Shown here piece after piece: positions 47,978 to 64,000 of a DNA stretch of 64,000 bases (its first letter is position 1; each line of letters opens with the position of its first letter). The position numbers and the translations under genes were made by a program. The DNA is taken from the NCBI GenBank assembly GCA_949283655.1, contig CASDTH010000016.1, positions 52,151 to 116,150 on the forward strand, read 5' to 3'. A model generated the notes under the pieces. The model was given only the letters and a program-made list of their open reading frames with translations. It was not told where the DNA came from and searched no databases. The DNA is from an uncultured bacterium (GTDB taxonomy: Bacteria > Bacillota > Clostridia > Oscillospirales > Acutalibacteraceae).

Positions 47978-48420
47978 CGTTCTGCACGGGGCAGGGGATT
48001 TTTGTTTTTTCGTCCGCCATCTCATTTCCCCAATCCATCATTCAGCTTCGTAGGGAATGGTCTCGGCCGTTTCGGCCCGACAGCCCCACAAACTTCCGGG
48101 AAGGCTTGCCGGAAGCCTTCCGGGGGTTTCCCTTAACTCAGTGGCAGGAACCTTTCAATAGGCCAGCGGCGACAGGTTCCGTGCATTTCTGGTGGGCTGG
48201 TGAGGGGACTTGCCTAAAATGTTTGCACTGCCGTGAGGTAGCGAGTTCTTTGGGCGTTCGCCGAACACATCAAAGCGATTCTGAAACGTATCAGTGCCGC
48301 CGATGGCCGTAAGAACGGCCCCTTTTGCTTTCTTTGCCGGCCGAGCGGAAAAGGAGGGCTCTGCGGCCTGAGCGGAATAAACATCAATGTTTCATTCGTG
48401 GTGCGGCCAATAGATTTTTG
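47978..48420. other. Intergenic region, possible decayed repeat
   Basis: About 440 bp without a supported gene. Fragments such as GGGCGTTCGCCGAAC near 48253 recall the palindrome of repeat A, and GGCCGTAAGAACGGCC forms a small hairpin. This may be a degenerated member of the repeat families. Confidence 0.4.
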
Positions 48421-50638: not shown

Positions 50639-50922
50639 TAGCATCAGTGTACAAGGGTACACATCGGTTTTCAGCGCCGTGGCCACGCCCCTGGCTGCGT
50701 TATCCTCCTTGCTTTCCGCCAAGGAAAGCTGCGCCGTCTGCCTTGCCAGGCATCCTGGCCACAGGCTGAAAACTCCGAAGGACCGCTTAGGGCTGCTTCA
50801 GGCGAGGGGATCGCAAGGCCGCAGGGCACGGCCGGGCTCGCCGCCCTGCCGCGCCCGAGAACGCAGCGAGCATCCGTCTGAGCCCGCCTTAGCGGCGATG
50901 TTCCCCTTGTACACTGATGCTA
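50639..50922 (+). mobile_element. MITE-like structured element, repeat B copy 1
   Basis: A 284 bp non-coding element bounded by perfect 19 bp inverted ends (TAGCATCAGTGTACAAGGG at 50639-50657 and its complement at 50904-50922). Its interior is conserved with 63662-63938. It contains long-range pairing (GTTTTCAGC...GTGGCCA with TGGCCAC...GCTGAAAAC), a GCTTTCC/GGAAAGC hairpin and a GCAGGGC/GCCCTGC stem. It lies between the GH2 promoter and the bioY operator. No transposase is encoded. Confidence 0.8.
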
Positions 50923-50971
50923 CCCTGCCTTATGAAAAAGCACATGATTGTGGGAACATGGAAGGCTCCAT

Positions 50972-51005
50972 ATTGTAAACTATATTAAAATATAAGGTTG
51001 ACAAT
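50972..51005 (+). promoter_or_regulatory. BirA operator of bioY
   Basis: ATTGTAAAC (50972-50980) and GTTGACAAT (50997-51005) form the inverted repeat known for biotin repressor sites in Firmicutes (TTGTAAAC/GTTTACAA type, 16 bp centre). The right arm includes the -35 box of bioY. birA itself is encoded next to bioY. Confidence 0.88.
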
Positions 51006-51026
51006 AAAGAGGCATTCCCCTATCAT
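50998..51026 (+). promoter_or_regulatory. bioY promoter
   Basis: TTGACA (50998-51003), 17 bp, TATCAT (51021-51026). Biotin-bound BirA should cover the -35 box. Confidence 0.82.
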
Positions 51027-51062
51027 AGAGAGGACAAGCACTCAATGATGGGAGAAACGTTT

Positions 51063-63411: not shown

Positions 63412-63621
63412 CCTGTAAGTAGTTCGGAGCCGCAAACGTAACGATAGGCCCAGGCGGCAGCTGCTGCCACTCAATGCGTGCGCGTGAGGGAATTTGCCCG
63501 CTCTGCGGGCAAACGAACCTTCCCGCCTGTTTGAAGCCGCGTGAGCGGCTGAGTTCGGGAAGCGTTCGCCGAACGCGCTGTGGTGTGGCAAATTTAAATA
63601 CCGCCGCCGCAGTGCCGTTCG
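63412..63621 (-). repeat. Dispersed structured repeat A, copy 2
   Basis: A 210 bp reverse-strand copy of 28002-28214. The internal hairpin is TTTGCCCGC-AGA-GCGGGCAAA here, against an A/T stem in copy 1, while the flanks are almost identical. The frame through it is longer here because TGG replaces the TGA of copy 1; I do not call it a gene. Confidence 0.8.
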
Positions 63622-63661
63622 CGGGGTCAAGGGGTGAAGCCCCTTGGCTGCTTCTCTTTTC

Positions 63662-63938
63662 GCATCGGTGCACAGGGGGCAACAGCGGTTTTCAGCGCCA
63701 TGGCCGCGCCCCTGGCTGCGTTATCCTCCTTGCGTTCCATTAAGGAAAGCTGCGTCGTCTGCCTTGCCAGAATCACGGCCATGGGCTGAAAACTCCATAG
63801 GACCGCTCCGGCAGCTCAAGCGAGGGGATCGCAAGGCCGCAGGGCGCGGCCGGGCTGCCCGCCCTGCCGTGCCCGAGAACGCAGCGAGCGCCCGCCTGAG
63901 CCTGCCGGGCGGCGCTGCTTCCCCCTGTACGCCGATGC
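63662..63938 (+). mobile_element. MITE-like structured element, repeat B copy 2
   Basis: A 277 bp copy of 50639-50922 with inverted ends GCATCGGTGCACAGGGGG (63662-63679) and CCCCCTGTACGCCGATGC (63921-63938), 16 of 18 paired. Interior stems are conserved, with base changes that keep pairing (ATGGCCG/CGGCCAT against GTGGCCA/TGGCCAC in copy 1). Confidence 0.8.
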
Positions 63939-63940
63939 TG

Positions 63941-63963
63941 GTTCTCTTACAGAAGTAAGAGAA
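63941..63963. other. Small hairpin between repeats B and E
   Basis: TTCTCTTAC and GTAAGAGAA form a 9 bp stem. The window ends soon after, so its context is unknown. Confidence 0.4.
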
Positions 63964-63966
63964 GGT

Positions 63967-64000
63967 AGTCGCGTACAGCGAAACCAGGCAGTCATTAAAA
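63967..64000 (+). repeat. Dispersed repeat E, copy 3 (cut by window edge)
   Basis: GTCGCGTACAGCGAAACCAG plus GCAGTCATTAAAA matches 9977-10010 and, reversed, 48422-48457. It may continue beyond the window. Confidence 0.65.

Follow-up and report, generated by a model that had tools for sequence, protein, structure and literature searches.

The window (the whole stretch of 64,000 nt analyzed here) holds two long copies of a repeated element, at positions 50639-50922 and 63662-63938, and reading the sequence again at both places located them exactly there. Copy 1 overlaps only mechanical open reading frames (ORFs), with no recognized gene within it, and the length differences among elements are not multiples of 3. 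Read by eye, the region that follows it (50923-51060) has, about 70 bases downstream of the element, a promoter-like TTGACA that precedes a bioY-like ORF. Copy 2 is embedded in a larger repeat (63440-64000) that recurs with the element elsewhere in the genome carrying the window, hereafter the home genome (loci L008, L009, L010, and L011), and that is partly present, there without the element, in the congener G001 (contig C72); a further short repeat, at 48296-48374, has many G001 matches, several of them at contig ends. Labels beginning with G denote other genomes, and those beginning with L denote loci. The features of the two copies are as follows.

50639-50922, no strand assigned: element copy 1, long type, 284 bp, running from TA to TA
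50639-50657, plus strand: left inverted end of copy 1, 19 nt, 100% complementary to the right end
50904-50922, plus strand: right inverted end of copy 1
50667-50773, minus strand (here the CAAGG strand, the one favored in relatives, the strand being taken from the mismatch and fold-energy results): left hairpin of copy 1 (columns 29-142 in the consensus structure of alignment A1)
50689-50753, CTGCG strand on plus: core of copy 1, covariance model R1, 82.7 bits
50695-50711, plus strand: first 17-nt loop strand, CTGCGTTATCCTCCTTG, conserved in alignment A2
50729-50745, plus strand: second 17-nt loop strand, CTGCGCCGTCTGCCTTG, conserved in alignment A2
50783-50895, plus strand: right hairpin of copy 1, consensus columns 152-265 of A1, the spot where relatives have a second, inverted core
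63662-63938, no strand assigned: element copy 2, long type, within the larger repeat
63710-63774, plus strand: core of copy 2, model R1, 78.4 bits
63854-63890, minus strand: possibly a second core of copy 2 in decayed form (score 10.8 bits, E 0.77, not significant)

Searching the right hairpin of copy 1 with model R1 gave no second-core match, and copy 2 bears TC and TG at the positions of the terminal TA of copy 1. An earlier, sequence-only reading had taken the pair for a MITE-like element with inverted ends and compensatory changes, and its observations held on re-reading: the 19-bp end pair of copy 1 is perfect, the stem sequence GTGGCCA/TGGCCAC of copy 1 is replaced by ATGGCCG/CGGCCAT in the other copy, and between the copies one A-T pair at the ends gives way to G-C. 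Both of its “two full copies” are real, but the family is far larger: BLAST gave 53 matches in the home genome at E<=0.001 (with 40 of 86 first-look candidates scored) and 12 in G001. Of 40 genomes, the home genome included, four gave matches, those of G009 and G011 being confined to the core (query 50-114).

The prediction that the element folds was supported by covariation both within the genus and across genera. The predicted fold of the copy 1 plus strand has an energy of −153.6 kcal/mol, against a shuffled mean of −115.2 (z −7.3), and that of the minus strand −161.9 kcal/mol (z −7.0). RNAalifold, applied to 24 copies from two congeneric species, gave 60 pairs, 16 of them changed on both sides; with the end pairs added there were 74 pairs, 18 with changes on both sides. 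Over these 74 pairs, in a structure derived from the same alignment used to test it, 94.9% of cells were paired (89.4 when shuffled, 39.5-45.1 with slid partners), and 86 cells carried double changes (shuffled mean 28.5, slid 8-21). The number of double-change pairs (18) was equalled or passed in 37 of 500 shuffles and the pair types (69 vs. 68.2 shuffled) showed no excess, so that support within the genus rests on the joint changes in cells; and because a large share of the changes are differences between the two species, inherited by descent, the independent paired-change events are few.

Beyond the genus, what recurs is the core. A pattern search (CGTTATCCTCCTNG...CGTCNTCTGCCTNG, total length allowed 38-64 nt) of a collection of 84,980 species, from which records of the home genome may have been excluded, gave 65 stretches of 47-49 nt in 18 public assemblies; by record titles 17 of the 18 carriers are Clostridia or other Bacillota and one, which may be misbinned, is from the Propionibacteriales (L074, with a core of 49 nt). 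Within the taxonomic family the pattern occurred in six of 200 genomes, and the 30 matches listed there were all 47 or 48 nt. The reversed pattern, run as a control, gave none among the 200 genomes listed, which argues against a chance origin. Phage carriage was also rejected, since the core matched no phage and the exact pattern occurred in no viral contig, as was plasmid carriage: there were four weak plasmid matches (two in Mycolicibacterium and one each in Sinorhizobium and Streptomyces), and the Mycolicibacterium pair, when read, lacked the core hairpin.

In an alignment of 28 representative cores (A2) the outer and inner stems covary, with 87 double-change cells (27.7 on shuffling, no more than 41 with slid partners). 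Double changes occur in 11 of the 13 pairs, and 74 of 500 shuffles reach that count. Both loop strands hardly vary while the stems change, although this near-fixity is partly an artefact of selection because the search pattern contained both strands. Model R1 then matched 43 of the 394 genomes of the order (37 of the 315 good genomes, 31 of 169 genera), where matches near the threshold are partly due to chance and three (L229, L268, and L272) resemble coding sequence. The search of relatives and the covariance model proposed by the earlier reading thus yielded both further copies and covariation. Among 31 short elements, 11 have a second motif, CGAAAAATCCTCG with at most three mismatches, downstream of the core; no shuffled flank has it.

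The core has two-fold symmetry: each loop strand is close to a copy of the other, and both strands read CTGCGT-V-CCTTG. In divergent members CTGCGT and CCTTG are retained on both strands and the center is altered. In 17 of 33 divergent cores, a set that includes related elements and is therefore not fully independent, the two centers are complementary over at least four bases in a row (mean 4.9 and maximum 10 cores in 500 shuffles), and this is so in none of 21 canonical members. Because of these complementary centers in divergent members we read the core as a pair of similar half-loops flanking a short middle helix; in the canonical form the middle would be a fixed unpaired stretch. Six long members (L031, L052, L070, L093, L106, and L207) carry a second core about 110 nt away on the opposite strand (E <= 2.1e-6), and three more (L082, L204, and L213) carry a weakly scored one. 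Two loci with two far-apart cores each (L114 and L049) were considered as autonomous units and rejected: they are separate elements with unlike ends and ordinary-looking genes between.

The elements are small (79-321 bp in the strict sets), dispersed, multi-copy, free of a transposase gene, and bounded by terminal inverted repeats, as MITEs are. The ends come in two kinds. Among 22 home-genome elements, hand-picked from 39 paired stretches by omitting larger-repeat, contig-end, very short, and doubtful copies, 19 begin and 20 finish with TA, and none has a 3-bp repeat beyond. An orthologous empty site in G001 (L066) reads AGGAAG-TA-CAG where the home genome (L006) reads AGGGG-TA(element)TA-CAG, and the single TA of the empty site argues that TA is duplicated on insertion. 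The bioY leader of G001 is also without the window's element, with a left flank that could not be aligned.

Elsewhere the duplication is of 3 bp. Exact TNA repeats flank 33 of 40 elements in G343 (12.0 expected with flanks mixed) and 10 of 14 in G550 (5.15 expected), where the 14 include two mis-ended repeats of elements already counted; empty sites for the G343 elements were sought in G550, and none were found. An end-pattern search of G343 found 43 and 48 ends, against 0 and 1 in the control, and some of its elements (L306, L307, and L312 on contigs C6, C9, and C1; 259-321 bp) contain an insert, GC-rich and about 160 bp long, that lies next to or within the core and has inverted repeats of its own. 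By strict count, which omits two loci at contig edges (L076 and L098) and seven with no ends (L035, L037, L039, L047, L084, L246, and L248), TNA repeats were present in 8/8 elements from Peptococcaceae, 4/5 from RGIG5014, 1/1 from CAMVNL, 3/4 from G011, 1/1 from G025, 2/4 from Papillibacter, 1/2 from G491, and 0/1 from G300. The same count found no 3-bp repeats in G001 (0/9), G009 (0/10), G139, G050, and G505 (0/6 together), L094 (0/1), or L075 and L080 (0/2). The one empty site and the TNA repeats together amount to the target-site duplication seen in MITEs.

End kind and core type do not go together. Canonical cores occur with TA ends (the home genome and G001) and with TNA ends (RGIG5014 and Peptococcaceae), and divergent cores likewise (G009 vs. 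G343). Since like cores carry other ends, many with TNA duplications, core and ends are not tied together, and we read this as ends that, on the sequences compared, may be interchangeable between elements; alternatively, the size of the target may have changed within one enzyme lineage. We take a TA target to belong to IS630-like enzymes and a TNA target to IS1031-like ones. The ends of six elements (L070, L096, L100, L222, L254, and L255) contain, by eye, what we take to be a sequence like the tRNA T arm, GGGTTCGACTCCC or similar.

If the elements folded only as duplex DNA, G.T and A.C mismatches should be equally frequent, and an inequality speaks for folding as a single strand. Reading the CTGCG strand of 33 elements, most of them with a single hairpin, gave 74 A.C and 25 G.T mismatches (p 8.5e-7 if independent), where only pairs at least 25 positions from the core were counted because a conserved mismatch nearer to it inflates the raw A.C excess. 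An A.C excess on the CTGCG strand is G.T on the CAAGG strand; 21 elements favor the latter and four the former, with eight ties, and by groups of like ends the count is 14 vs. 3 (7 ties, p 0.013). The CAAGG strand also gives the more stable predicted RNA in 29 of 31 elements (mean −77.8 vs. −64.6 kcal/mol). A single-stranded form, either RNA or ssDNA, is therefore moderately supported in the relatives by these mismatch counts and predicted folds. The long type of the home genome, over 40 pairs, has 31 G.T and 30 A.C and so no significant strand asymmetry. Its end columns have, on the plus strand, 28 G.T and 16 A.C; by hairpin the direction is as expected and weak (left, A.C 28 and G.T 24; right, G.T 24 and A.C 15), and of 12 long elements eight are more stable as the minus strand and three as the plus strand, with one tied at the precision given. 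Of the “structured RNA” in the earlier reading, a single-strand fold thus stands by way of the relatives' asymmetry, whereas the window's own family lacks significant wobble asymmetry and the strand could be RNA or ssDNA.

The near-equality of G.T and A.C in the long type is what would be expected if the paired changes were a by-product of the correction of one arm against the other during replication of long palindromes, with no selection on the fold; the arms are indeed long and near-perfect. Such correction predicts neither the strand asymmetry of the relatives nor loop strands that stay near-fixed across genera while the stems change, and we consider it very improbable as the source of the covariation.

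The asymmetry could also mean that the element is primarily a structured RNA with a host function, such as the control of nearby transcripts, that is only spread as a repeat in the manner of ERIC or NEMIS. RNAs of known MITEs do act on neighboring transcripts, according to one account (PMC2229807), and one home-genome element would be transcribed, because promoter-like sequence lies directly before it: L006 (1380-1500) starts 5 nt past the −10-like hexamer of TTGACG-17-TACAAT (by eye), and this promoter-like stretch precedes a small ORF. The genomic context does not favor such a role. Flanks of 700 bp were available for 61 of 86 core sites, and 59 sites could be assigned a position relative to neighboring mechanical ORFs (18 of these 59 falling inside one); 20 were co-directional with their neighbors, 12 opposite to both, 16 in divergent and 11 in convergent gaps, with no bias. 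Element strand was likewise unrelated to GC skew (34 vs. 39, after 10 of 83 sites were dropped as weak and three further loci proved too short), so that both host regulation through gene orientation and a replication-strand preference were set aside as accounts of the distribution. By eye, the flanking genes also vary from copy to copy. A host-serving RNA is therefore an unlikely explanation. At L223 (1568-1740) an element lies directly upstream of a stretch resembling a TPP riboswitch.

We looked for the mover in several ways, including the transposase with matching terminal repeats that the earlier reading had proposed to look for, and found no such gene in the carriers searched. No transposon with matching ends was apparent by eye at insertion-sequence distance among the matches listed for the home genome, nor were end pairs at that distance in G009, G139, G050, G505, G069, G142, G343, G550, G058, and six others, some of these assemblies being fragmented; 14 unpaired ends in the home genome, read 420 bases inward by eye, showed no transposase. 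Two transposase families were searched, DDE_3 and Y1_Tnp. An IS630 transposase was rejected as the mover, since DDE_3 is not in the home genome, occurs in 5 of 16 other carriers, and has unlike inverted ends where these were compared. A Y1 (RAYT) enzyme was rejected as well: Y1_Tnp had no match in 10 of 19 carriers, the home genome included, and the nine carriers that have it are no excess over the 6 of 13 seen among genomes lacking an exact match to the core.

This last result bears on whether the family consists of REP/REPIN-type ssDNA elements cut by a RAYT-like Y1 transposase, the two-core long elements being REPIN-like pairs. REP and REPIN sequences are many-copy hairpins, often in inverted pairs, with strand-specific folding, and CGTC REPs have no known transposase, as described in PMC3733652; our elements share the hairpins, the inverted pairing (in six long members), and the strand asymmetry, and their absence of orientation bias would also fit. 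They differ in their size (80-320 bp), their long inverted ends, their target duplications of 2-3 bp, and a Y1 transposase that does not track them, nor is there the GC-skew bias (34 vs. 39). To our knowledge, 2-3 bp target duplications are not expected of Y1 chemistry. We regard the chance of a Y1-cut element as remote.

Other small bacterial repeats come closer. ERIC/IRU, RUP, and Correia/NEMIS are, as tabulated in PMC2229807, small non-coding repeats whose ends are inverted or pair with themselves; they have a terminal TA, duplicate their target, and give long stem-loop transcripts, and RUP is proposed there to be moved in trans by IS630-Spn1. The present family resembles these in being small, dispersed, and non-coding with inverted ends, terminal TA, and target duplication, but differs in a core kept across genera with two kinds of ends and duplications. 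Unlike RUP, the element has no autonomous partner that we could find, and ends common to it and a resident IS630 transposon were not seen; copy 1 had no match in 5,426 Escherichia coli genomes (distant mode) that would bespeak ERIC. The CIR repeats of Caulobacter and Brucella, whose loop motif is GANTC and which are listed without inverted ends in the same source (PMC2229807), are similar in having two hairpin arms with a linker and a conserved loop motif; ours have inverted ends and a symmetric internal-loop core. An Rfam scan of the window and of sets of six and eight loci gave nothing at gathering score, in keeping with the earlier impression of no named family, and the sub-threshold matches were dismissed. 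Four exact core strings had no match in the PMC papers searched, and literature searches (MITEs with Faecalibacterium, with Clostridium and TA, and with Oscillospira) gave no description among the top papers listed, a coverage mostly outside the subscription literature.

Among plant MITEs, Stowaway (TA) and Tourist (TWA) are separate families by target duplication. The same two kinds, TA and 3 bp, occur here, but both carry the same core type. By the searches made, we read the family as a variant of bacterial MITE that has not previously been described.

Taken together, a folded, dispersed repeat whose core is common to elements with unlike ends is well supported. We judge it likely (with a probability of roughly 0.68) that this repeated non-coding hairpin family is a non-autonomous mobile element (a superfamily of bacterial MITEs) that transposases recognizing its ends would move in trans, with a putative function for the CAAGG strand. 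The MITE half of the earlier proposal is sustained by copy number, TA and TNA flanks, the empty site, and the lack of a recognized gene; because no transposase with matching ends was found, mobilization in trans is an inference by analogy with RUP, and on that analogy is likely. Transposases reading the ends would supply the mobility. The CAAGG strand (CAAGG...ACGCAG) would act as a folded single strand, more probably RNA than ssDNA; a dimeric protein, either host or helper, would bind to its two-fold symmetric loops, and this binding would help the element to persist or move, whichever transposase serves it. A bolder version, which we hold only tentatively and think doubtful, is that the core, a single folded nucleic-acid module, is the real replicator across Clostridia and one actinobacterial assembly, swapping ends, riding unrelated TA and TNA transposases, and engaging a conserved dimeric protein through CAAGG-strand RNA or ssDNA.

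Bacterial MITEs are usually viewed as leftovers of a single transposon, defined by their ends. In this family a structured core persists while stems and ends change, and the target duplications are of two kinds. Through its core the family can be searched for by covariance model, and one carrier, Papillibacter cinnamivorans DSM 12816, is in culture, so that the question of RNA or ssDNA is directly testable there. If the reading is true, a non-autonomous element can have its own selected function as a single strand, one that does not depend on its mover.
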